From positions 124,001 to 188,000 of the forward strand of contig JAUSMA010000014.1 of NCBI GenBank assembly GCA_030645475.1: a stretch of DNA of 64,000 nucleotides, in the 5' to 3' direction. Source of the DNA: Nitrospirota bacterium. Its GTDB lineage: Bacteria; Nitrospirota; Nitrospiria; Nitrospirales; Nitrospiraceae. Below, one piece after another: positions 51,154 through 64,000 of this stretch. A program made the position numbers and the translations under genes. Positions within the stretch are counted from its first letter, which is position 1. Each line of letters begins with the position of its first letter. The notes below the pieces were generated by a model. It was not told where the DNA came from. It ran no database searches and saw only the letters and a program-made list of their open reading frames with translations.

Positions 51154-51188
51154 ATAACCATTGACCCATGACCCATAACCGTTACCCA
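51154..51188. repeat. 7-bp-period repeat before the OmpA gene
   Basis: ATAACCA, TTGACCC, ATGACCC, ATAACCG, TTACCCA. It ends a few bases before the GAAGGAG ribosome binding site. Confidence 0.7.
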
Positions 51189-51203
51189 AGAAGGAGTGCC
51201 ATC

Positions 51204-51941
51204 ATGCAAAAGCCCTCGTCCATATCGTCAGGCAATATCTCTCCCGCCATCGTGGGGCCGAATAAGGACATGAAGGAGGTCTATGTGCTCGGCGGGCTGG
51301 TCTTCAGCCTGGCCATCGTCATCGCCGCCTTCTGGTTCTACTCCCAAGACCTGGCCGTCTCATCGACCGGCCAAAACGACCAACTGACCGATACCCAGGT
51401 CACCAGCCTGCTCAAGAACCAGAACCCACCCAACCCCCTCAGCGAACCGATCACCAAGATGGCCGCCACCGGAACCGCCGACACCGTCCATACGGATCTC
51501 TACTTTGAAGTCGGGCGGAAGGGTCTGACGGACGAGGCCAAGTCGATCCTCGCAGCGCAGGCCGACATCCTCAAGAAGAATGGGGACTGGGGCCTGCTGA
51601 TCCAGGGCTATACGGACCAACAGGGTTCCGCCAGCTACAACAAGAAGCTGGGCATGAAGCGGGCTGAAACAGTGAAGACTGAACTCGTGAGCGCGGGCGT
51701 CGCCGAGAACCAGATCAAGACGGTAAGCCTGGGTGAAGAAGGCGTGCTCTGTGTCGATGCGAGCGACGTCTGCCGCAATATGAATCGACGGGTGCACTTG
51801 GAGATGCGGAAGATCGGGCAGGCACATATGATCGTGCCGACCGTTGCCACCCAGACCCCGGAGAGCCTCCTTCCCTCCACTGGCGAACCCAGCGGAACCG
51901 ATCCCTCCATTCCCCTCATCGACCAAGCCTCCGGCAGCTAA
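51204..51941 (+). CDS. OmpA-family protein of a dedicated sortase system (PdsO-like)
   Basis: 245 residues from ATG 51204, with AAGGAG upstream. One N-terminal TM helix (about 27-47), then a periplasmic OmpA-like peptidoglycan-binding domain (about 90-205: LYFEVGRKGLTDEAKSIL, IQGYTDQQGSASYNKKLGMKRAE, RRVHLEM). A Cys pair in EGVLCVDASDVCRNMNRR may form a disulphide. Position upstream of a VIT/VWA sortase target and a sortase matches the OmpA member of the proteobacterial dedicated sortase system. Confidence 0.85.
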   Translation: MQKPSSISSGNISPAIVGPNKDMKEVYVLGGLVFSLAIVIAAFWFYSQDLAVSSTGQNDQLTDTQVTSLLKNQNPPNPLSEPITKMAATGTADTVHTDLYFEVGRKGLTDEAKSILAAQADILKKNGDWGLLIQGYTDQQGSASYNKKLGMKRAETVKTELVSAGVAENQIKTVSLGEEGVLCVDASDVCRNMNRRVHLEMRKIGQAHMIVPTVATQTPESLLPSTGEPSGTDPSIPLIDQASGS

Positions 51942-52037
51942 CCGGAGCAGCCTGTGCCCCTGGCGGAGACGACAGTCTCCGCCAGGGCCGGTCGGCGACG
52001 AGCATCACCACCATTCCCGACGAATCACGAGGCACCT

Positions 52038-54155
52038 ATGACCACCTGGACCCCGAGTGACAGACCCCACACAACCAGCCACATCCTGAGCATCTGGATT
52101 ACGCTGTTCTTCACCCTCTTCTCCTGGGCCGGCGGGCTCCCGATTCTGCATGCCTGCGGCGAGGAACCGACCCCGCTTGAAGGGACCATCGGCCTGAGCG
52201 ACGTGAAGCAGGGCATGCTGCTCTTTCGCAGCGGTCAGGCCGGACGCTTCATCCCGGCGCCCAGCCTGAAGACCGACGTGCAGATCACGGTGACCGGCGT
52301 GATCGCACGGGCTATCGTCACACAGGAATTTACGAACCCCGGCAAGGACTGGGCAGAAGGCATCTATGTGTTTCCCTTGCCGGAGACCGCCGCCGTCGAT
52401 CACCTGCGCATGAAGGTCGGCGAACGCACCATCGAAGGCCAGATCAAAGAACGGGGCGAAGCCAAGAAGGTCTATGAGCAGGCCAAACAGGAAGGGAAAC
52501 GGGCGAGCCTGGTCGAGCAGGAGCGGCCCAACATCTTCACCACATCCATCGCGAACATCGCGCCGCGCGACAGCATCACGATTCAAATCGAATATCAGGA
52601 AACGGTTCGATTCGACCAGGGCACCTTTTCACTCCGATTTCCCCTGGTCGTCGGACCCCGCTACATCCCAGGGACACCGATCCTCGTCGAGGATCAACCC
52701 CAGGCCGGTCAGGGTATGGCGCTGGATACAGACCGTGTGCCGGACGCCTCGCGCGTCACGCCGCTGGTCGAACATCCGGCCTACGGCTCGATCAACCCAG
52801 TCAGTCTCTCGGTCGATCTGGCGCCAGGGTTTCCGCTCGGCAGGCTGGAATCGGCGTCGCATCCGATTCTCATCATTCCTGAATCAGACGGACGGCGGCA
52901 CGTGACGCTCCGCCAGGATACCGTCCCGGCCGACCGGGACTTTCAGCTGACCTGGCAACCGGCTCCCGGACAGAATCCCACCGCGGCCCTCTTTACCCAG
53001 CAACAGCAGGGAGAGACCTACGCCTTCATGATGATGATGCCGCCAGCCACGGTCGGAAAGGCACCGGTCGGCCTGCCGCGTGAAACGATCTTTATCATCG
53101 ACACGTCCGGCTCGATGTCCGGCACCTCGATCGAGCAAGCCCGCGCCGCATTGCTGATGGCGCTCCCTCGTCTGACCGCACGCGACACCTTCAACGTGAT
53201 CGAATTCAACAGCATCGTTCATGCGCTCTTCCCCTCCCCGCAACCGGTAACGACTGCGACGATGCGGAAGGCCATGAAGTTCGTCGACCGCCTCGTGGCC
53301 AACGGCGGAACGGAAATGCTGCCGGCATTGACTCAGGCCTTGAAAGCCCCGGCCGACCTGCAACGGATTCAGCAAGTGATCTTTCTCACCGACGGGCAAG
53401 TGGGCAACGAAACCGAACTCTTCGAATTGATCAGACAACGGCTGGGTCCTCGCCGGCTCTTTACCATCGGCATCGGCTCGGCACCCAACAGCCACTTCAT
53501 GCGGAAGGCCTCTGAGTTCGGCAGGGGAACCTTCACCCACATCGGCAATGTGAACGAGGTGAAGGACAAAATGGATGCGCTCTTCCGCAAGCTGGAACAT
53601 CCGGTCCTGACGGAGATTCGGCTAGAAGGCACCGGCCTGGATGGCGCCGAACTCTTCCCCTCCCGCATTCCGGATCTCTATGACGGCGAGCCGGTCGTGG
53701 TGGCGATTAAGACCAGGTCGCTGCCGGACGAGGTGACGATCCAAGGCAAGGAAGGGTCGACGCCCTGGAAGGTGACACTGTCGCTGACACAGAGCCCATC
53801 GCGCGAGGGGCTGTCGGTCTATTGGGCGAGGCAGAAGATCGCCGCGCTGATGGATCACGAACGCTCCGGCCAGGATGATGCAACCCTACGCCAGGCGGTG
53901 CTCGATGTGGCGCTGCCCCATCATCTTGTGAGCCAGTACAGCAGCCTGGTCGCGGTCGACGTCACACCGGTTCGTCCCATCGACAAGAGCCTGATCGGCC
54001 ATGCGATGAAGACCAATCTACCGGATGGACAGGATTCTCAGGCGATGCTCGGCCTGCCGAAAACCGGGACGAGTGGACAGATCCAATTACTGTTCGGGCT
54101 GTTGTTGCTGGCGATAGCGGGCCTGCTCTGGCAACGACAGAAAGTGGTCGCGTGA
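52038..54155 (+). CDS. VIT/VWA protein, dedicated sortase target
   Basis: 705 residues from ATG 52038. N-terminal TM or signal segment (about 15-38), VIT domain (about 55-185: QEFTNPGKDWAEGIYVFPLPE and the GQIKERGEAKKVYEQAK region), VWA domain with the metal site DTSGSMSG (about 355-362), a C-terminal beta region, and LPKTG at about 673 followed by a hydrophobic helix and WQRQK. This is a complete LPXTG sorting signal in a Gram-negative setting. The stop codon overlaps the sortase gene by 4 nt. Confidence 0.93.
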   Translation: MTTWTPSDRPHTTSHILSIWITLFFTLFSWAGGLPILHACGEEPTPLEGTIGLSDVKQGMLLFRSGQAGRFIPAPSLKTDVQITVTGVIARAIVTQEFTNPGKDWAEGIYVFPLPETAAVDHLRMKVGERTIEGQIKERGEAKKVYEQAKQEGKRASLVEQERPNIFTTSIANIAPRDSITIQIEYQETVRFDQGTFSLRFPLVVGPRYIPGTPILVEDQPQAGQGMALDTDRVPDASRVTPLVEHPAYGSINPVSLSVDLAPGFPLGRLESASHPILIIPESDGRRHVTLRQDTVPADRDFQLTWQPAPGQNPTAALFTQQQQGETYAFMMMMPPATVGKAPVGLPRETIFIIDTSGSMSGTSIEQARAALLMALPRLTARDTFNVIEFNSIVHALFPSPQPVTTATMRKAMKFVDRLVANGGTEMLPALTQALKAPADLQRIQQVIFLTDGQVGNETELFELIRQRLGPRRLFTIGIGSAPNSHFMRKASEFGRGTFTHIGNVNEVKDKMDALFRKLEHPVLTEIRLEGTGLDGAELFPSRIPDLYDGEPVVVAIKTRSLPDEVTIQGKEGSTPWKVTLSLTQSPSREGLSVYWARQKIAALMDHERSGQDDATLRQAVLDVALPHHLVSQYSSLVAVDVTPVRPIDKSLIGHAMKTNLPDGQDSQAMLGLPKTGTSGQIQLLFGLLLLAIAGLLWQRQKVVA

Positions 54156-54742
54156 TTGGACCAGGCATCAAGATCAAGGCGATGCCTCTCCTGGCTCTCG
54201 CCTTGGTCCTGCTCGGTCTGTGGCAGACGGGAAACGGCGCTTGGATCTACCTCAAGGCTGAACTGGCCCAAGTCCTGTTGCAACGGGCTTGGGCCGGTAC
54301 GGTAGCAGGCCAAGAACATGTGACACCCTGGCCCTGGGCCGATACCTGGCCTCTGGCCCGGCTCACGGTTCCATCGAAGGATATCGATCTCATTGTGTTG
54401 AACGGCGCCTACGGGCGAACCCTGGCATTTGGACCAGGCTATTTGGAATCGAGCGCCGCTCCCGGTTCGAGAGGGACGACAATTCTCACCGGCCATCGCG
54501 ATACGCATTTTCGATTTTTGCAGCGATTGAAGGTAGGCGACGAGATTATGCTCTCGACCAAGAACCAACAGCCGCATCGGTATCGCGTCAGAAGCAGGGC
54601 CGTCGTGGATGTGGCCACCGCGTCGATCCGGCAGGACACAGACGCGCCGCAACTCGCGCTGGTGACCTGTTATCCCTTCGATGCAATCAGCCCAGGCGGA
54701 CCGCTCCGCTATGTGGTGATGGCAGAGGAAGAAACGTTCTGA
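54152..54742 (+). CDS. Class GN (Gram-negative dedicated) sortase
   Basis: 196 residues from GTG 54152. N-terminal membrane anchor (about 10-28). Catalytic residues: His in TILTGHRDTHF, Cys in ALVTCYPFD, Arg in GPLRYVV. The size and motifs fit the single-target sortases of proteobacteria. It should cleave the LPKTG of the protein encoded directly upstream; the acceptor of the cleaved protein is unknown. Confidence 0.93.
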   Translation: MIGPGIKIKAMPLLALALVLLGLWQTGNGAWIYLKAELAQVLLQRAWAGTVAGQEHVTPWPWADTWPLARLTVPSKDIDLIVLNGAYGRTLAFGPGYLESSAAPGSRGTTILTGHRDTHFRFLQRLKVGDEIMLSTKNQQPHRYRVRSRAVVDVATASIRQDTDAPQLALVTCYPFDAISPGGPLRYVVMAEEETF

Positions 54743-54832: not shown

Positions 54833-56014
54833 TTATTTCGCAATGGTGATACTCGGCACGCCGACGCGCGGCACCTCGCTGACGGTCATTTGGAACAGGA
54901 GGTATAACAATTGGAAAGCCTCGCGATTCCAGCGCGCCAATGGCCCCGTCGTGTTCACCGCGTAATATTTTCCGTGGGACTGAATCGACAGGTCGGCATC
55001 CGAGGGAGCGCCATCCGTCAACAAAAGTTCCATGGTATGGACGGGATTTTCGTGAACCTCGGGGGTCCGAGAATCTTTCTCGACGGGATATTCTGGGTCT
55101 TCTCCCAGCGATCGGCCGAGAAAGTTGAGAATGGTATTGAAGCTTCTCAGCCGGAAATCTCCCTTGATGGGATATTCCCCGCCCACGTGCCCCGGACGGA
55201 TGTCGAAAGAGACATCGTTGAGGTGCCCTTCTTCCGTTTCGTCGATCAACCGGGCCCGTTCCTCCGGTGAGAGCGTGTCGGGGTCATAGTTGGTGATAAG
55301 AATGCGTCCCGTGATTTGTTTTCGAATGGTGTAGGTATTGTCTTTCTGGCTGTAGGTCACGAGATATTCTTTTTGTAACGATTGGAAGCCTTCGGCTGTG
55401 ACGGAGTTGGCGGGAATCGTCCAGGTCCGATTGTAGACGAGCGGTTCGGCATAGAGCTGGTTCTGGTCTTGAATGGCCGAAAGATGCGTCACCACGCGAC
55501 GGAACATCTCGTAGCCAGGCCGATCGGCCGGCGTATTGCGATAGGCGACTTCCTGGCCATTCTCTGCAATCCGCAATTCCTGCGCCATCAGCCTGAGCAA
55601 CAGATCGATGTCGAATCGCTGCCGGAGCAAGAGCGTGAACTTGGTTTCCTGAAAGGGGGTCAAAAGCCGCTTGGTGAATTCTTCCCCTTCGATCGGCACG
55701 ATACTGATCGTGGGGTTTTCCGCCACGCTGCCGCCGAAGATCGGCATGAGCGCTTTGCTGGACTCTCCCGTCAGGGCCGGAGTGGCGCCGGCGCTGACAC
55801 GAAAGTCGAACGTCGCGGCGATGTTCGAGACGCCGGTGAAGTGAATCGGTTGATGCTGATGGGCGCGAGCGATGTTGATGAGCAACTGCTTTGAGATGGC
55901 ATCTGTGACCGCCTGATCATAGGCCGTCACAGCTCGATTCAGCGTAATGGGGGAGAGGCAGCCTGACAGCAGCAGACCGCAGAGCAACGTGAATGCCTGA
56001 ATTCCTATTTTCAT
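54833..56014 (-). CDS. Lipoprotein of unknown function
   Basis: 393 residues from ATG 56014 (MKIGIQAFTLLCGLLLSGC), with the lipobox Cys at 19. No membrane segments follow. Recognisable stretches include LLINIARAHQHQPIHFTGVSNI near the start and TFDFRVSAGAT, which recur in uncharacterised lipoproteins of Gram-negative bacteria. Gene direction is opposite to the sortase operon, with about 90 nt between stop codons. Confidence 0.8.
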   Translation of the reverse strand: MKIGIQAFTLLCGLLLSGCLSPITLNRAVTAYDQAVTDAISKQLLINIARAHQHQPIHFTGVSNIAATFDFRVSAGATPALTGESSKALMPIFGGSVAENPTISIVPIEGEEFTKRLLTPFQETKFTLLLRQRFDIDLLLRLMAQELRIAENGQEVAYRNTPADRPGYEMFRRVVTHLSAIQDQNQLYAEPLVYNRTWTIPANSVTAEGFQSLQKEYLVTYSQKDNTYTIRKQITGRILITNYDPDTLSPEERARLIDETEEGHLNDVSFDIRPGHVGGEYPIKGDFRLRSFNTILNFLGRSLGEDPEYPVEKDSRTPEVHENPVHTMELLLTDGAPSDADLSIQSHGKYYAVNTTGPLARWNREAFQLLYLLFQMTVSEVPRVGVPSITIAK

Positions 56015-56111
56015 AGGGAGAGATATCGGCTCACAAGAGGTGACGCATCGACGGACCACGTACCAATCAGCCGAGTTGTGATCGATCGCCATGACATACG
56101 AACGCGAGGTG

Positions 56112-56187
56112 TGGAGCCGGCGATCCGGATTGAACGGACGACCTGCTGTTTACGAAACAGCTGCTCTACCAACTGAGCTACGCCGGC
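56112..56187 (-). tRNA. tRNA-Thr (CGT)
   Basis: 76 nt with an encoded CCA and discriminator T. The acceptor is GCCGGCG/CGCCGGC, and the anticodon arm GCTGT-TTCGTAA-ACAGC gives CGT. Confidence 0.94.
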
Positions 56188-56289: not shown

Positions 56290-58260
56290 TTATTTGAACC
56301 GAGCCAGAGGCTGCAGCCTGACCATGGCCCCCTGGCCAGGCCCTGGAAGACAGAGGGGCTCCTGCTCCTTGCCGTACTGCTCTTGAGATATCTTGAGGAC
56401 CTGCCCCTTGGTATAGGCGCAGAGTTCGCCTGCCAGGATCGTCCCGTCCTTATCGAGATCTGCGGCCCCGCCCAGGCCCTTGAGCCATTGATAGGCAAAC
56501 AGCCCATGTTGGCCCGGGTCATAACTATGGGATTCTTGAAGTCCCCGGTTGCCGATCATCCACATGATCTTGTCTTTGACCACCCCCTCCTGGCCCCACA
56601 GGGGAACGGCCATGGCTGCCGACTCCGTGCCGGACGCCGACTCAAGCGAGAGGTCGAGCATCACCAGGGCCCGCTGAATCGGCAACTTCTCCAAGGATTC
56701 CTGCAGCCGGCGCAGCGAATAGAGGCGTGTCCCGGTTGTGGCCATACTGTCGAACAACAGCATCGACACAGCGCCGGTAATCGGATCGACCACTCCCCGG
56801 CCCGTGACCGAAATATAGACCACGGTGGTGGGATCGACCAGTTTAGGCAGCCATTCCTCCAGGGCTTCGGCCAGGTCGCTCTTGAGGGCATGACTATCGA
56901 GCAGCGTACGCACGCGCGCGTGAGGAATCCCTCCGATCGATCTCAGGTAGGTGGCGGCCTGCTCCGCATCCCGCGTCGCATACTTGACCCGGGCGATGCT
57001 GCTCTCACGGAACTGCCCCACGCCGACAACGAGACCGACAGCCTTCGGTTGTTTGAGCAAACCTGTCCGTTTCGGCAGCTGATCGACATCGACCGGCAGA
57101 GACTGAGCCCCCGGCGCAGAGGCAGGCTTCATCGCCACGAGAAACTTTTTGGCAGAGGGCAGCTGGACCGAGGGAGCTCCGGCCCGCAACATCAGCGTGA
57201 GCTCCGCCTGCACGGCGGCTGTGACCTCGCCGACTTTGCCGTCCAACGTCAGGCGTTTGACTTCGCCTGGCTGCAGATCGCCGACGGAGATCAGACCGGG
57301 AATCTGCTCGACTAAGGGTGGCGTCGCGGTCACCGACAGCTCCATGGCCCGTGCCATCCCCGGCCCTTCGTTTTTCACTTCGATTTCGATCGCGATGGCT
57401 TCACCGGCATGCAGCACCTGATTGCGATTTTCATCGCGAACAATCGCACGAAATATGATCGTAGCCGGCTCATCCGTTTGAACCGGCGCCGGCACCGCTG
57501 CCGCCGACTGCGGCGCGACGGGCTGCTTCACCGTAGCAGGTACTCCCCCGGTTGCAATCGGAGAGGGAGGCGGGACGGTCGCCACCGTCACCTTCGCGCC
57601 ACCAGCCTTGCGGGCTTCAGCGGCATCGACAATCTTCGTCGATGTCCCGAGTTGCTTGGCCATCCCGTCTGTAACGAGGCTCAAGGCCTCCTGGGCAATC
57701 TTCTCGAGCCCCTTCACGTCACAGGAGGAGGCGCTGACTTCCACCTCTCCACGTCCGATGCTTTGAATCTTCTTGCTATAGAGGACCGTCCCGTCTGCAG
57801 ACGTATAGGCAAAATCCAATCCCACAGAGACCATCGCAGGATAACTCTTGTCGGCCTTTCGAACGATCGCCAGATCGACATGGGCCAGACCGATCGATGC
57901 ATCGACATACCCGTCCGCGATCGCGGAGGATACGGTCGAACCCGTCAGCACTTTTTCAAAGACGCGGCCTGTTTTTCGTGTGAGCTGTTCTTGCAAAGGA
58001 CCGCCCAGCGGCAAGGATTGCTGCTGGCCACAAGCATCCTGATAGGTGAGCTGCGACGCAGCGATACTGGGATCAGAACGAAGCTGGACGGTCAAGGGGA
58101 GATAATAGCCGATCGTCTCGCCGTTTCGGCTGGAGAAGAGCCCGCAGCTCGTCAACGCCCCAACACAAAGTCCTGCGACAACCCATGAGGCTGTGCGAAA
58201 CAGAAAGGAGGAATGCGCGGAATCAATGACTTGCACCATCATTCTTATACAGAAAAGCAT
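56290..58260 (-). CDS. Lipoprotein with inactive caspase-like (C14) domain
   Basis: 656 residues. Lipoprotein signal with lipobox LTSCG (Cys about 39). An envelope domain (about 45-210) is followed by a Pro/Ala linker, a CARDB-like Ig domain (about 265-370), and a C14 domain from about 400. The caspase fold is clear from VGLVVGVGQF, VKYATRDAEQAATYL, HGLFAYQWLKGLGGAADLDKDG and GELCAY. The catalytic positions are lost: SGHG is replaced by VTGRG (His to Arg), and the DAC(H/F)SG motif by DLSLESASG (no Cys). The start may instead be ATG 58242 or 58239. Confidence 0.85.
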   Translation of the reverse strand: MLFCIRMMVQVIDSAHSSFLFRTASWVVAGLCVGALTSCGLFSSRNGETIGYYLPLTVQLRSDPSIAASQLTYQDACGQQQSLPLGGPLQEQLTRKTGRVFEKVLTGSTVSSAIADGYVDASIGLAHVDLAIVRKADKSYPAMVSVGLDFAYTSADGTVLYSKKIQSIGRGEVEVSASSCDVKGLEKIAQEALSLVTDGMAKQLGTSTKIVDAAEARKAGGAKVTVATVPPPSPIATGGVPATVKQPVAPQSAAAVPAPVQTDEPATIIFRAIVRDENRNQVLHAGEAIAIEIEVKNEGPGMARAMELSVTATPPLVEQIPGLISVGDLQPGEVKRLTLDGKVGEVTAAVQAELTLMLRAGAPSVQLPSAKKFLVAMKPASAPGAQSLPVDVDQLPKRTGLLKQPKAVGLVVGVGQFRESSIARVKYATRDAEQAATYLRSIGGIPHARVRTLLDSHALKSDLAEALEEWLPKLVDPTTVVYISVTGRGVVDPITGAVSMLLFDSMATTGTRLYSLRRLQESLEKLPIQRALVMLDLSLESASGTESAAMAVPLWGQEGVVKDKIMWMIGNRGLQESHSYDPGQHGLFAYQWLKGLGGAADLDKDGTILAGELCAYTKGQVLKISQEQYGKEQEPLCLPGPGQGAMVRLQPLARFK

Positions 58261-58343: not shown

Positions 58344-58437
58344 GGGAGTGGCCAAGGTTGCCCTTGACTGCGCGCATCGAACGAGCACAGTTTCATCGTG
58401 CGCGTTCTGCGAGCAAGAAGGGCACCTGGCCACTCCC
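58344..58437. repeat. Hairpin repeat family 1, full copy
   Basis: The outer stem GGGAGTGGCCAAGGTTGCCCTT pairs with AAGGGCACCTGGCCACTCCC. The apex is GAGCACAGTTTCATCGTGC. It lies between two divergent genes, unlike the copies that follow stop codons. Confidence 0.92.
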
Positions 58438-58484
58438 TCCCCCCCTCGTTGACAGCCCCACCCCCCTCGGCTAAGTTCTCCCGC

Positions 58485-59387
58485 ATGACCGAATCTTCTT
58501 CATCGGCACCGGAATCGTCCCTGTTAACGCCACGGCTCTCCTGGTCGGCCATCACCAGACTCGTTCGCCTCCAGAACCAAACCGGGACCTGGCTGCTCAT
58601 GTTCCCCACGCTCTGGTCGCTAGTCTTGGCGGCTCGCGGTCTGCCTCCGCTCCGGTTATTCGCGATTTTTGTGGCCGGCTCCTTCGTGATGCGCAGTGCC
58701 GGAGTGGTGCTGAACGATCTGGCCGATCGGTCTTTCGACCGGCACGTAGCGCGCACGTTGATACGGCCCCTCGCGTCCGGTGAACTGAGCGTCGCCCATG
58801 CCCTGCTGGTCCTCGCCCTCTTTCTCTCCTTAGCCGGCATACTCGTGTTACTGCTCGACCCCTTCACGATCCTCTTAAGCCCCATTGCCGTCCTGTTAGC
58901 CGCCCTCTACCCCTTTGCGAAACGTGTCATTCACGTGCCGCAAGCCATGCTGGGGATCGCCTTCGGCTGGGGCACAGTCATGGCCTGGGCCGCCTCGCGA
59001 GGAACGATTGAAGGGCCTGCCTGGTGCCTCTTCGCGGCGACGGTCTGCTGGGCAATCGGGTACGATACGATCTACGCCTTGCAAGATGTCGTGGACGATC
59101 GCCGAATCGGCGTGAAATCCTCGGCGTTGTTGTTCGGTTCGTCCACGTGGATCGCCGTCGGCACGGCCTTCGGCGCGATGCTGCTGCTATTGGGACTCGC
59201 AGGCTGGCTGGCCCACATCGGCTGGGTCTACTATGCCCTGCTCATGGCCATGGGAATGTGGTGTGGGAGGCAAGCCCTGCAGCTCAGAGGGGCCATACCG
59301 GCCCCTATCGCCTTCCGCATGTTTCAACAACATGTGTGGGTAGGAGCCGCTATTGGGGCTGCAATGGTCGCGGGATTTCTGCTCTAA
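58485..59387 (+). CDS. ubiA: UbiA-family prenyltransferase (4-hydroxybenzoate type)
   Basis: 300 residues from ATG 58485 (MTESSSSAPESS); the longer frame passes through the hairpin repeat. Nine predicted TM helices, with the two Asp-rich prenyl-diphosphate sites NDLADRSFDRHVART (about 82) and DVVDDRRIGVKS (about 206). It transfers a prenyl chain to an aromatic acid in quinone synthesis. The second copy of hairpin family 2 begins 2 nt after its stop codon. Confidence 0.92.
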   Translation: MTESSSSAPESSLLTPRLSWSAITRLVRLQNQTGTWLLMFPTLWSLVLAARGLPPLRLFAIFVAGSFVMRSAGVVLNDLADRSFDRHVARTLIRPLASGELSVAHALLVLALFLSLAGILVLLLDPFTILLSPIAVLLAALYPFAKRVIHVPQAMLGIAFGWGTVMAWAASRGTIEGPAWCLFAATVCWAIGYDTIYALQDVVDDRRIGVKSSALLFGSSTWIAVGTAFGAMLLLLGLAGWLAHIGWVYYALLMAMGMWCGRQALQLRGAIPAPIAFRMFQQHVWVGAAIGAAMVAGFLL

Positions 59388-59524: not shown

Positions 59525-60541
59525 TCAGCCTGCCGGCTTTTCGATCGGAGCATCCGGCTTCGGCGCACGCAAGGTCCCGAGGTACATCGTCACGGCTTTG
59601 GCATCGGCATCGCTCAACCCGAGTGCCGGCATCCTGGTTTCGGCTTTCATGGCCTGCGGGTTCTTGACCCACCGATAGATCCAGGTCCCATTCAATCTGA
59701 ATCCTGCTCGGTCGAGTGCCGGCCCCACTTTGCCACCCTCTTCACCGAGACTATGGCAACCGTTGCAGCCATACTTATTCGAATAGAGCCGCTTGCCCAA
59801 TTCGACCAATTCGGCAACCTGCTCGGGCTTCGTCGTGAGATCCGGGCGGGCGATATTCAGGCCTTTGCCTGGTCTCGTGGAGAAGTTATTCAGCGCAGCC
59901 TGGGCCGCGTCGAGTTCTTTTTTGGCCTGCACCATGGCAGCCAATTCCTTGGCATAGGAGGATTCGTCGGCATCGACGTCTTTCTTCAATTCTGCGCTCT
60001 TCTTCTCCGCTTCGTCGCTCGCCTTCTTCTCCGCGGCGTCATAGGCCTGCTTGGCCTGATCGGACTTGCCTTGGGCCGTTTGGAGCAGCGCAGCTAACTC
60101 GTTCTTCCGTTCCTCGACTTTAAACTCCAGCTTCATGCCGTGGAGGCCTCGGACATAACCCACGATGGCCCAGATTTCATCCTCGGAGAGGGTGTACTTG
60201 AAGGTCGGCATGGTCGGCACGGCGAAATCGTCGTCGCCGATCTTGTCGCCACCGGGACTCGTATCTTTCATGTCGCGTGAGACAGTATTGAAAATGTCTT
60301 CGTCCTTGAAGGTTCCCATCTCCGACTTGTTCGACAAATCTTTCGGCTTCGGATCCGGCATCGAGGACCAATTGAAGCCCTCGTTCTGGCGGCCGTTCTC
60401 GCCGTGACAATGCATGCAGTAGTGACTGTAGAGTTCCTTGCCCTTCTGCTGCTGCTCGTTGGCACAGCCCCCGATCACCATGGCCCAGACGCCAACCAGT
60501 CCCCCCACCATTCCTAATACTTGTAGGCGAGCCGCCTTCAT
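59525..60541 (-). CDS. Di-haem cytochrome c lipoprotein with internal coiled coil
   Basis: 338 residues from ATG 60541, overlapping the upstream stop codon by 4 nt. Lipobox near VIGGCANE. First haem motif CMHCH (about 42-46), then a Lys/Ala/Glu-rich coiled coil of about 75 residues, then the second motif CNGCH (about 265), with Met ligands likely in RMPAL and MPTF. It is the last gene of the respiratory cluster and probably passes electrons toward or from the bd-like oxidase. Confidence 0.88.
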   Translation of the reverse strand: MKAARLQVLGMVGGLVGVWAMVIGGCANEQQQKGKELYSHYCMHCHGENGRQNEGFNWSSMPDPKPKDLSNKSEMGTFKDEDIFNTVSRDMKDTSPGGDKIGDDDFAVPTMPTFKYTLSEDEIWAIVGYVRGLHGMKLEFKVEERKNELAALLQTAQGKSDQAKQAYDAAEKKASDEAEKKSAELKKDVDADESSYAKELAAMVQAKKELDAAQAALNNFSTRPGKGLNIARPDLTTKPEQVAELVELGKRLYSNKYGCNGCHSLGEEGGKVGPALDRAGFRLNGTWIYRWVKNPQAMKAETRMPALGLSDADAKAVTMYLGTLRAPKPDAPIEKPAG

Positions 60542-61404
60542 GCTGATTGCCCTTTCTTTAGCTTGCGGATCAGTACGAACTGAAATCCGAGAGCCAAGCC
60601 CACGGCGAGGAGCGCATAGTAATAACCGGAATAATCCGGCGGTGCCTCTGCGCGGAAATACCACCAGGAGGAGACCGCCTTTTGTGAGCCCTTCTCCTTC
60701 AGTTCGCCGCTCGCGTCCTTCTTACCGTCCCAGACGGCAAAGGAGATATTGATGAATCCGCCTGTGGCGATCTGCGTATCTTCATCCGGATGTTCCGTGG
60801 CGAGGGGCCTCGTAAAGACCACCTTCCAGGTTCCGTTCGCGTAGGCGCCTTTGGCCTTCACGTCCTGATGCGTCTGAACTTTCAGCGTGCCAAAACCCTT
60901 GGCATTCATGTCCAGCGCTTTGCCGTCTTTGTTCTTCCAGAACCAGATATTGACCGGGCCGCCTTCCACCTGCGCCATCGGCTGGCCATGCGCAAAGTGA
61001 GCTTTCTTGTCGCCCACCATAAACTCAATCGCCGCGGCATCGTCCGGATCTTCCGTTGGGTCCGTATACTCTAAGAGAATGGCGACGTTCGTTCCGTCAT
61101 GTAAGGCACGCACGTTCAGGTCTCTGACCGTCGCTTCCAAAATACGGTTCGGCCAATGGACTTGCGGCGACATCGGGAATCGCGCCAGCGTGGCGCTGCT
61201 CCACACCGCCGCATTCGGGTCATCGACCGGCAGAGCGCCCTTCACCATCGGGGCGCTGACCGAAACACTTTGCAAGGTTGATTCAGCCTGAACGGTGGCC
61301 GCGGACTTTTCCTCGGCAGAGCCAGGCTGCACAGCCAGCAATCCCATGGCAAGCCATGCACCGACCGCAACCGTCGGAACGATGTAGTTCAGTCTCTGTG
61401 TCAT
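60538..61404 (-). CDS. NxrC-like haem-binding gamma subunit (DMSO-reductase superfamily)
   Basis: 288 residues from ATG 61404, with AGAGAGGA upstream. Signal peptide (about 1-30), a beta-sandwich of the ethylbenzene-dehydrogenase haem-b type (VHWPNRILEATVRDLNVRALHDG, VNIWFWKNKDG), and one C-terminal TM helix (YYYALLAVGLALGFQFVLI). It resembles the gamma subunits of nitrite oxidoreductase-type enzymes, but no alpha or beta subunit gene is nearby. It is placed within an oxidase cluster. Confidence 0.8.
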   Translation of the reverse strand: MTQRLNYIVPTVAVGAWLAMGLLAVQPGSAEEKSAATVQAESTLQSVSVSAPMVKGALPVDDPNAAVWSSATLARFPMSPQVHWPNRILEATVRDLNVRALHDGTNVAILLEYTDPTEDPDDAAAIEFMVGDKKAHFAHGQPMAQVEGGPVNIWFWKNKDGKALDMNAKGFGTLKVQTHQDVKAKGAYANGTWKVVFTRPLATEHPDEDTQIATGGFINISFAVWDGKKDASGELKEKGSQKAVSSWWYFRAEAPPDYSGYYYALLAVGLALGFQFVLIRKLKKGQSA

Positions 61405-61436
61405 AAGTTCCGTCCTCTCTCTACTCACGTCTCAGA

Positions 61437-61530
61437 GGGTGCAGCGGTGGGCCTTCCACTGCGCGCATTCACCGGTCACCTTCTCAACGTGCGCGGTGTG
61501 CGAGCACAGAAGGCAGGCACGCCTACTCCC
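61437..61530. repeat. Hairpin repeat family 1, full copy
   Basis: Core pair CACC/GGTG (a fourth state), boxes ACTGCGCGCATTCACCG and GCGGTGTGCGAGCACAG. It starts 2 nt after the stop codon of the upstream cytochrome gene on the minus strand and ends about 32 nt before the next start codon. Confidence 0.88.
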
Positions 61531-61532
61531 GT

Positions 61533-62252
61533 CTACTCCCAGGTCCTCGGCGCTTGATGCGCGCCATCGTACTCGCCCATGATAATTTTCCAGATCCATT
61601 CGTCAGGAAGCTCGACTTCCCAGCGAGGCATCGCGGACTTCCATGGCATGCCTTCAATCGGGAGACCGACGCCACCCTTCTTGATGCGCCAGAAGAGATA
61701 GCTCTCTTGCAGCATGGCGATGGTCGTCGGATCGGAGAAGTTGGCGGGGGGAGGATTGAATCCTCTGGCTGCCGGCCCCTTCCCATCGAAGTTTCCACCA
61801 TGGCAAGGAGAGCAGAACGCGGCATAGAAGCCCTTCCCCTGCTGGATGGTGTCCGGTGTCTTGGGAACGGGATTCGACAAGCCGGTGTATTCCCCTGGCG
61901 GAGCCGGGTGAATCGTTCGGTTTTCCGATGGCGGCGCATCGCTGGTTGCGGTGCTGCTATAGGTTTGCCAGCCGACCATCAAGGGAAACAGCAGCAGCAC
62001 GCCGTACCGCAATACTTGTAACCCGCCGATATTCTCTCCTGTCAGAAACCGTTGAATCGGATTCCAGAACGCATCCTTCGACTCTCCGCTCAACGTGGCG
62101 AAAATGACAATGCCCGATGTCGTCAACATCAGATACAGAAAGATGAGACTGGCCGGCAGCGGCGCCGAACCAGGGATATTGGGCACCACAAACTTCAAGA
62201 TCGCATAGACGATCCCAATCAATATGACCGGCTTAAGCAACGAGCCCCCCAT
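61533..62252 (-). CDS. Membrane-anchored mono-haem cytochrome c
   Basis: 239 residues with GAGGAGG upstream. Three TM helices (about 7-25, 35-53, 82-100), then a cytochrome c domain with the haem motif CSPCH (about 152) and Met ligand candidates in GMPWKSAMPRW. The multi-TM anchor suggests tight association with the oxidase. It lies 10 nt after the preceding cytochrome gene. Confidence 0.88.
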   Translation of the reverse strand: MGGSLLKPVILIGIVYAILKFVVPNIPGSAPLPASLIFLYLMLTTSGIVIFATLSGESKDAFWNPIQRFLTGENIGGLQVLRYGVLLLFPLMVGWQTYSSTATSDAPPSENRTIHPAPPGEYTGLSNPVPKTPDTIQQGKGFYAAFCSPCHGGNFDGKGPAARGFNPPPANFSDPTTIAMLQESYLFWRIKKGGVGLPIEGMPWKSAMPRWEVELPDEWIWKIIMGEYDGAHQAPRTWE

Positions 62253-62262
62253 ACGTTCCTCC

Positions 62263-62886
62263 TCAGTGCGCTTGCGCCACGGCCACTGGACCGGATTGAG
62301 CGACCTTCACCGGAGCGGCAGGCGCCTGTCCCGGCACTTCGAGTTCAGCCACATTCACGGAAATCGGCTCCCCGCTCATCTGTTGCAGGAATGCGATGAC
62401 CGATAGAATTTCATTTTTGGAAAGCCCGATCGGGTTCTTATTGATGTAGGGCATCCTGGCTGGATATTCCTTCGGCTGGCCGCCATGGCGGTAGTCGAGA
62501 TAGATATAGGCCTGCGGTTGCGTCAAGCTTTCAAACAGAAATTCACGGCTCAACTTGGCCCCGATTCCCTTGAGATCAGGGCATCGGGCGGACTCGCTCG
62601 GGCCGATGGTATGGCAGAGCGCGCATTGGCCCTTGCTGAAGAAAATCTTCTGTCCGATGGTCGCCATATCGGTCGGCGTTTTGACCGTGGCGATGTCGAA
62701 CTTCTCTTCCACCGGGGGCAACGACGCCATCTGCGGCACCGACAAGGCGACGAGCGTAAAGAGACCGAGTACGATCGCGACAAATCCAATGACCCGCACG
62801 AATTGGGCGCGGACCAGGAGGAGGATCAGAGCCCCGCATCCGACTACCGTCAGCCCAATCAACTGCAATTTGACAACTTCGCTCAT
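62263..62886 (-). CDS. Membrane-anchored mono-haem cytochrome c
   Basis: 207 residues. Two TM helices (about 7-25 and 32-50), a haem c domain with CALCH (about 93) and Met candidate in ARMPYINKN, and an Ala/Pro/Val-rich tail. AGAGGAG precedes the ATG. It lies 31 nt after the bd-like oxidase subunit gene. Confidence 0.9.
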   Translation of the reverse strand: MSEVVKLQLIGLTVVGCGALILLLVRAQFVRVIGFVAIVLGLFTLVALSVPQMASLPPVEEKFDIATVKTPTDMATIGQKIFFSKGQCALCHTIGPSESARCPDLKGIGAKLSREFLFESLTQPQAYIYLDYRHGGQPKEYPARMPYINKNPIGLSKNEILSVIAFLQQMSGEPISVNVAELEVPGQAPAAPVKVAQSGPVAVAQAH

Positions 62887-62917
62887 AAGACTCCTCTTGC
62901 GAAATCGATCGCCTTAC

Positions 62918-64000
62918 TTAACTGTGCGATGCCTTCGCCTTATCGCTCATCGTGGCTACCCAGAAGATGAACGCGACAATCATGCAGAACAAGAAGGTGT
63001 TCAAGGCCATAATCCCGGCTGCATAACCCAGCGCCGGTGAAAATGCATATTGCGAGGAATCCCGAAGCACACCATACACATGCCAATGGACGCGCGATGA
63101 CGACCTGGCATATCCCATCAATGTCATCAGGAGGATGACCATGATCGCATTGAGGACCAGCGCGTACCCGGCCCGCGGAGGCATCTTGCCCCAGACCATT
63201 TCCGTCGTGGTCTTCGCGCTCTTCAGCAGCAGCGCGGTTAATGGCGTGATCGTCAACATGACGAAGAGCACGATCATGACCTGAGACGTTGAGAAGTAAT
63301 TGATCCGAATAATGGCCGGCACAAAGTAGCCCCAGACGCCCAGGACGACGACCGCGATACCAGCGAGGACCAGCAACGCACTCATCAGCGCTTTCGCGGC
63401 CTTTGCCCATCCGGCGGTCTCTTCCTTGCCCGCGCGCCAATACATGATAAAGCTCATGAACGTGACGAGAATCATGAGGTTCGAGACCGTCATCTTCGCC
63501 GACATGACGCCGAACACGCCAAGCAGCGGATGGTGGGTTCCTCCCATTTTTCTCGCTTCTTCCAAACTCGCCACGAGCGAGTGGGGCGTCATCCAGACGC
63601 CGAGGCAGAGCAGCAGGATAATCAACATCGACAACATCGACTTCCGATACTTCAACTCAGAGCCTGGAATACGATAGGTGATTCCCAGCCAGAAATAATA
63701 GTTCGATCCGAGAAACAGCACTCCGATGAGCATGGCCTGCAGAATGAACAGCCAGGAGAGGAAGCCTCCCATCAGCGTAATGCCCATCTGCTGGTTGTAC
63801 TGATAAATTTCGCGCATGAGCCAGTAGCCGGCAAAGGGAAGCGGCAAGAGACCGAACACCCCGATGAAATTTCCGACGTAGCCCATCCAATCGTAGTGAT
63901 CGCGCTCTTCTGCGTTTCTGGCAGAGAGATAGCGAATCCCGGCGTAGGCGCCGCAGATGTAACCGCCCAGCACCACGTTCGCAATCAAACGGTGAATGTT
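62918..64000 (-). CDS. Cytochrome bd-like oxidase subunit, 5' end beyond window
   Basis: At least 360 residues, open through the window edge. Nine or ten TM helices with conserved-looking His/Trp/Arg positions at helix ends (NIHRLIAN, RVHWHVYG). The overall pattern matches the CydA-like subunits of the unusual bd-like oxidases proposed as terminal oxidase in Nitrospira. No quinol-binding Q-loop can be assessed because the start is missing. Confidence 0.75.
   Translation of the reverse strand, partial: NIHRLIANVVLGGYICGAYAGIRYLSARNAEERDHYDWMGYVGNFIGVFGLLPLPFAGYWLMREIYQYNQQMGITLMGGFLSWLFILQAMLIGVLFLGSNYYFWLGITYRIPGSELKYRKSMLSMLIILLLCLGVWMTPHSLVASLEEARKMGGTHHPLLGVFGVMSAKMTVSNLMILVTFMSFIMYWRAGKEETAGWAKAAKALMSALLVLAGIAVVVLGVWGYFVPAIIRINYFSTSQVMIVLFVMLTITPLTALLLKSAKTTTEMVWGKMPPRAGYALVLNAIMVILLMTLMGYARSSSRVHWHVYGVLRDSSQYAFSPALGYAAGIMALNTFLFCMIVAFIFWVATMSDKAKASHS

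Follow-up and report, generated by a model that had tools for sequence, protein, structure and literature searches.

The gene at 56290..58260 on the minus strand of the window (the whole stretch of 64,000 nucleotides analysed here) raises the question of what a caspase fold may do in a bacterial lipoprotein when both residues of its catalytic dyad have been replaced. The reading frame is intact, with an ATG start and 656 codons plus stop without internal stops, and its product begins with a signal peptide and lipobox, continues with an LptE/PqiC-like N-domain and a second, Ig/CARDB-like domain, and ends in a C14 caspase fold. Orthologues, hereafter clade A, are found in most of the 32 genomes of the genus and throughout the family. 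We consider it fairly probable that the protein is a non-proteolytic pseudo-orthocaspase of Nitrospira, lipid-anchored on the periplasmic side, most likely of the outer membrane, where it would act as a periplasmic binding module.

Pseudo-orthocaspases, defined by a C14 p20 domain in which one or both dyad residues are substituted, account for 858 of 9,994 orthocaspases, and their bacterial variants include YS, YN, YA, FS and others (Klemencic et al., 2019, PMC6426788). Across the Nitrospirae taken together, the dyad is conserved to only 57% (Asplund-Samuelsson et al., 2012, PMC3501461). SyOC of Synechocystis (PMC7889975) is the only bacterial pseudo-caspase with a knock-out study found in the literature searched, and a search for the present Nitrospira family found no paper describing it.

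The caspase fold and its replaced dyad

The caspase-fold domain (residues 400-656; 56293..57063, minus strand) gave no match to PF00656 in a single-sequence Pfam search, and the NCBIfam caspase model NF047832 matched the window protein at E 1.8e-5, under the cut-off. A PDB search with the single sequence was uninformative, with one chance capsid match, and the clade-A caspase profile found no match among PDB sequences. Comparison of the clade-A caspase domain by hhalign with the active relatives that carry His and Cys (the HC group) gave a probability of 100 and E 2.9e-64 over 263 columns, with 34% identity, and in this alignment TGRG lies over AGHG and MLDLSLE over MLDSCFS, with no shift. Because of this superposition, Arg488 (56797..56799, minus strand) is assigned to the site of the catalytic His and Ser538 (56647..56649, minus strand) to that of the catalytic Cys, and the two altered motifs named in the preliminary description, VTGRG and DLSLESASG (in full MLDLSLESASG), are both confirmed. 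A shifted alignment that would place a real His/Cys pair elsewhere in the domain was also considered and is ruled out; the only His and Cys residues there are H447, H457, H578, H585, C614 and C637.

Structure prediction, which had been suggested as a check, agrees with the profile alignment. The AF2 model of the caspase domain has a pLDDT mostly of 90-97, and its best Foldseek match is MALT1 (3v4o; E 6.5e-10, TM 0.71 by target length), with metacaspases and caspases next in rank. With the framework residues G413, D431, G487 and HG585-586 conserved and both methods in agreement, the domain has the Peptidase C14 fold; with Arg488 and Ser538 in place of the His-Cys dyad, it belongs to the pseudo-orthocaspases as defined in PMC6426788 and not to the active orthocaspases. 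The MALT1 paracaspase and the metacaspases (3v4o, 4f6o, 8a53) are alike in overall fold but share only 10-15% identity with it, have no lipoprotein part and, as wild-type enzymes, possess the dyad.

Whether the same replacements are fixed in orthologues was a further point of the preliminary description, and they nearly are. Among the 72 clade-A orthologues having the domain, position 488 is Arg in 70, Leu in one (G038) and Lys in one (G163), and position 538 is Ser in 87% and Thr in 11% (98% together), with Ala in one orthologue, whereas His and Cys are present in 35 of 35 active relatives whose domain is sufficiently complete. When the sequences are reweighted, to an effective number of about 22, Arg still accounts for 91% at position 488, which then stands at the 80th percentile of conservation. 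Arg occurs there in 15 of 17 sampled genera, two of them with an orthologue without the CARDB-like domain, and the position is one of seven that switch between two fixed states when clade A is compared with the active relatives. The Thr, Ala, Leu or Lys found at the dyad sites of a few orthologues indicates that not every member needs the exact pair.

The lack of proteolysis is inferred from these residues alone, and the protein might still be a protease that employs other residues, either Ser538 as nucleophile or H585 together with C614 or C637. A Ser or Thr at the former Cys position in nearly all orthologues, and the invariance of H585 in clade A, would fit this idea. However, Arg is ill suited to act as a general base; one orthologue has Ala instead of Ser538, and two have Leu or Lys instead of Arg488; H585 is common to active enzymes that also carry the true dyad; and C614 is absent from 7 of 72 orthologues, both Cys residues lying C-terminally, past the EF-hand-like loop. 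We therefore regard residual proteolysis as very improbable.

Loss of the dyad, together with disappearance of the caspase domain in two genera, could also be expected of a former enzyme decaying under relaxed constraint. This explanation, which has the least credit with us, is contradicted by the selection data: the caspase domain is under purifying selection, with pairwise dN/dS values of 0.07-0.24, a range like that of the other domains, and Arg488 is itself well conserved, as described above. With its near-fixed change of the dyad, the protein looks like a non-enzyme conserved for some binding function and not like the product of a broken gene. The preliminary reading of a pseudo-caspase is accordingly supported by profile alignment, structure prediction, near-fixed replacements in about 17 genera and purifying selection.

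Lipoprotein architecture and a possible binding surface

The signal peptide and lipobox (residues 1-39; 58144..58260, minus strand) end in LTSC, residues 36-39, the arrangement of a bacterial lipoprotein. Cys39 is conserved in 71 of the 72 clade-A orthologues having that region and also in paralogue clade B and the sister families, and a simple lipobox pattern matches 53 of 96 family sequences. The protein is most likely lipid-anchored on the periplasmic side of a membrane, with the outer membrane as the candidate site according to the +2 sorting rule taken from E. coli.

The N-domain (residues 50-225; 57586..58113, minus strand) was modelled by AF2 with pLDDT 89 and pTM 0.82. Its best Foldseek matches are XCC0632 (DUF330/PqiC-type), LptE, CsgG, PelC and FlgT, with modest TM scores (about 0.45-0.55); 2iqi is matched at E 6.7e-7, and the many LptE matches have TM of about 0.5. 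All of these belong to the outer-membrane lipoproteins or are components of the envelope. The likeness to LptE, DUF330 (PqiC-type), CsgG and PelC lipoproteins is one of fold only, as the N-domain has no family match at the sequence level, and the Nitrospira domain differs from them in being fused to a caspase fold. Cys39, Cys77 and Cys180 are conserved together in 70 clade-A orthologues, 19 of 19 members of clade B and 3 of 3 of sister family f3, which fits a lipidated periplasmic domain that would be braced by a disulfide. The earlier view of the product as an exported lipoprotein is in keeping with the lipobox, the conserved Cys pairs and the resemblance of the N-domain to envelope proteins.

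The claim of a CARDB-like domain (residues 266-380; 57121..57465, minus strand) stands weakly and at the level of the family, where the domain appears real: 15 of 50 members match CARDB (PF07705) at E<=0.01, with a best E of 1.7e-6, while the window protein itself is sub-threshold (18.1 bits against a cut-off of 22.7; E 0.0033). The region is rich in beta structure in the AF2 model, and orthologues in two genera, g3 and g7, lack it. The AF2 model of the whole protein has a pTM of 0.47, a low value that probably results from loosely placed domains.

Several features of the caspase domain are retained. Asp431 (56968..56970, minus strand) is present in 100% of clades A and B, sister family f3 and the active relatives, and Asp536 (56653..56655, minus strand), two residues before the former Cys, is Asp in 94% of clade A or else Glu; by position, the two are likely equivalents of the S1-pocket acids of metacaspases (PMC6426788). 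Position 540 is mostly acidic in clade A (Glu 59%, Asp 26%), and an acid there would permit a salt bridge with Arg488. The EF-hand-like loop, D-x-D-x-D-G-x-I-x-x-x-E (residues 601-612; 56425..56460, minus strand), is found in 67 of 72 members of clade A, 19 of 19 of B, 3 of 3 of f3 and 4 of 4 of family f2, against 19 of 31 active relatives. What had been described as a C14 end motif, GELCAY, is really GEL-x-x-Y following this loop, plus a clade-specific Cys. Cys614 and Cys637 (56350..56421, minus strand), which may form a disulfide, are both present in 65 of 72 members of clade A, to which they are confined, with none in clade B or the active relatives.

A binding or scaffold role is the best inference from these features. 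The LptE/PqiC-like domain, braced by the Cys77-Cys180 disulfide, would dock the protein onto a partner or into a ring, and the Ig-like domain, absent in two genera, would serve as a spacer. The caspase fold, with its acidic S1-pocket residues and EF-hand-like loop, would offer the former substrate groove as a surface for binding peptides or proteins, and Arg488, often opposite the acid at 540, would fill the old catalytic site. Binding is possibly calcium-dependent.

Descent, paralogues and related systems

For 108 caspase domains, a maximum-likelihood tree was built without the two dyad columns and midpoint-rooted; it contains some long branches. A branch with support of 100/100 separates clade A (support 100/99), paralogue clade B (100/98), sister family f3 (100/100) and family f2 (100/94) from the HC group, save L054, which is itself degenerate (AGHA / EAPID). 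The simplest reading of this midpoint-rooted tree, which is not a proof, is that the dyad was probably lost once, in the ancestor of the order Nitrospirales. The residues at the dyad sites differ among the descendants: they are mostly Leu/Ile in clade B, a few members having Gln or Val with Leu; Asn or Ser with Ser or Ala in f3; and His or Gln with Pro, Ser or Gln in f2.

Paralogue B (G000:C15:85995-87824; L042, L211) has the same architecture and its own locus, conserved family-wide. A third C14-like protein of about 470 amino acids (G000:C61:58237-59670, or L252; orthologues L253-L281) is missing from only one of the 32 genomes of the genus; in every genus genome examined its His is intact while Ala occupies the Cys site (NAAVRG), and it is by these residues another fixed pseudo-caspase. 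Nitrospira thus holds, besides the Arg/Ser family, an ancient paralogue of Leu/Ile type and a third family of His/Ala type.

Pseudo-enzymes often act as decoys or regulators of active enzymes, and the present protein might play such a part toward active C14 proteases of the same cell. Several active-type C14 genes do occur in the same genome, and the acidic pocket is retained; the genome of the window (G000; 99.9% complete) encodes six other C14 proteins that match PF00656. This role is nevertheless improbable and is made less likely by G152, a 100% complete genome that has no PF00656 match and encodes only three C14-like proteins (A, B and the third), all dyad-less; G001 is likewise, so that both keep the gene with no active C14 partner detected. 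At least one complete genome with dyad-less C14 folds and no active one detected provides a clean test case for a caspase fold that is not a protease. Genomes from other Nitrospirota classes (L217, L218, L219) contain tandem clusters of many C14 genes, with up to 20 C14-like matches per genome.

The active C14 homologues from other Nitrospirota classes (L183-L190) and from a few Nitrospira genomes (L049-L052) share 34% profile identity over the caspase domain, and many of them also have a CARDB-like region, but their His and Cys are intact and their N-terminal regions are different. Like the bacterial pseudo-orthocaspases, the Nitrospira protein combines a C14 p20 fold with replacement of both dyad residues, the common change of Cys to Ser and retention of acidic residues in the specificity pocket. 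Unlike them, it has Arg and not Tyr in place of His, it is a lipoprotein with LptE-like and CARDB-like domains, and it belongs to an order-wide, vertically inherited family of non-phototrophs with a fixed locus. SyOC is without a p10 domain, whereas the Nitrospira protein retains the region after p20. The host is assigned to Nitrospira, its relatives among the named genomes being Nitrospira/Nitrospirota MAGs. Nitrospira is a chemolithotroph lineage, and the protein, with Arg in 70 of 72 orthologues, falls outside the photosynthesis-linked YS/YN clades, which have Tyr for His and phototroph hosts. Pseudo-orthocaspases as such are already established, and what this family adds is its Arg/Ser pair, its build as a lipoprotein, its descent through the whole order and its fixed locus. 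Bacterial pseudo-caspases have mostly been discussed for phototrophs; Nitrospira and its relatives hold a near-universal, vertically inherited family that is exported and lipid-anchored, and this family argues against a default cell-death role for caspase folds.

The conserved locus and its neighbours

The gene is divergent from ubiA (58398..59387, plus strand; TIGR01474 above cut-off) in 56 of 56 testable loci, which are not independent of one another, at a distance of 112-438 bp in all but two (maximum 2172 bp); in the window the two genes share a region of 137 bp. Beyond ubiA, cytochrome c / ethylbenzene-dehydrogenase-type genes (59525..63988, minus strand; Pfam/NCBIfam) lead into a cytochrome b and Rieske cluster, and the neighbouring cytochrome gene is syntenic in 54 of the 56 loci, across many genera and a second family of the order. 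From this gene order alone, it may be proposed that the protein serves the adjoining quinone / cytochrome bc-type module, for instance as a factor that assembles or anchors it in the periplasm. This proposal is possible but rather unlikely. In several genomes ubiA and the cytochrome gene are present but ubiA has no clade-A gene beside it, or one reduced to the N-domain, although in some cases the gene only seems absent because the contig ends within it; being divergent from ubiA, the gene shares no operon with it or with the cytochrome genes; the tRNA gene that bounds the locus may merely freeze its position; and anchoring in the outer membrane would put the protein in a different membrane. 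The gene next to ubiA in genera g2 and g21 (L288, L290, L298) encodes the LptE-like N-domain alone, without CARDB or caspase parts, and because f3 has the full protein, these loci are most simply explained by loss of the caspase part; the caspase fold is therefore dispensable there.

The favoured reading of a periplasmic binding module can be extended, speculatively and at still longer odds than a service to the quinone module, to a history in which a Nitrospirales ancestor once turned a caspase into a calcium-responsive structural or receptor protein of the outer membrane, which was then duplicated, the Arg/Ser copy becoming fixed at the quinone / cytochrome bc locus and supporting the assembly of periplasmic electron transport. 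If this were true, a pseudo-caspase would have a core respiratory or envelope role.

On the 3′ side, tRNA-Thr (CGT) (56112..56187, minus strand; ARAGORN and Rfam) follows the gene in almost all loci checked, f3 included, and beyond it gene content is variable and contigs often end, which suggests that the region is an integration hot spot. The changing sequence past the gene was considered as a control that would strengthen the ubiA linkage, but it is weak in this respect, since the break can plausibly be attributed to integration at the tRNA. An operon with the 419-aa lipoprotein-like ORF downstream (54833-56092), which has no family match, is rejected, since this ORF occurs in close relatives only and the tRNA gene lies between. 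PADLOC gave no match for a defence system. Farther along, 51168-54742 carries an OmpA-like gene, a VIT/VWA protein with an LPKTG end (TIGR03788) and a class GN sortase (TIGR03784), in a Gram-negative host, and the edge of the window, positions 1-244, holds part of a bacterial RNase P RNA of class A.
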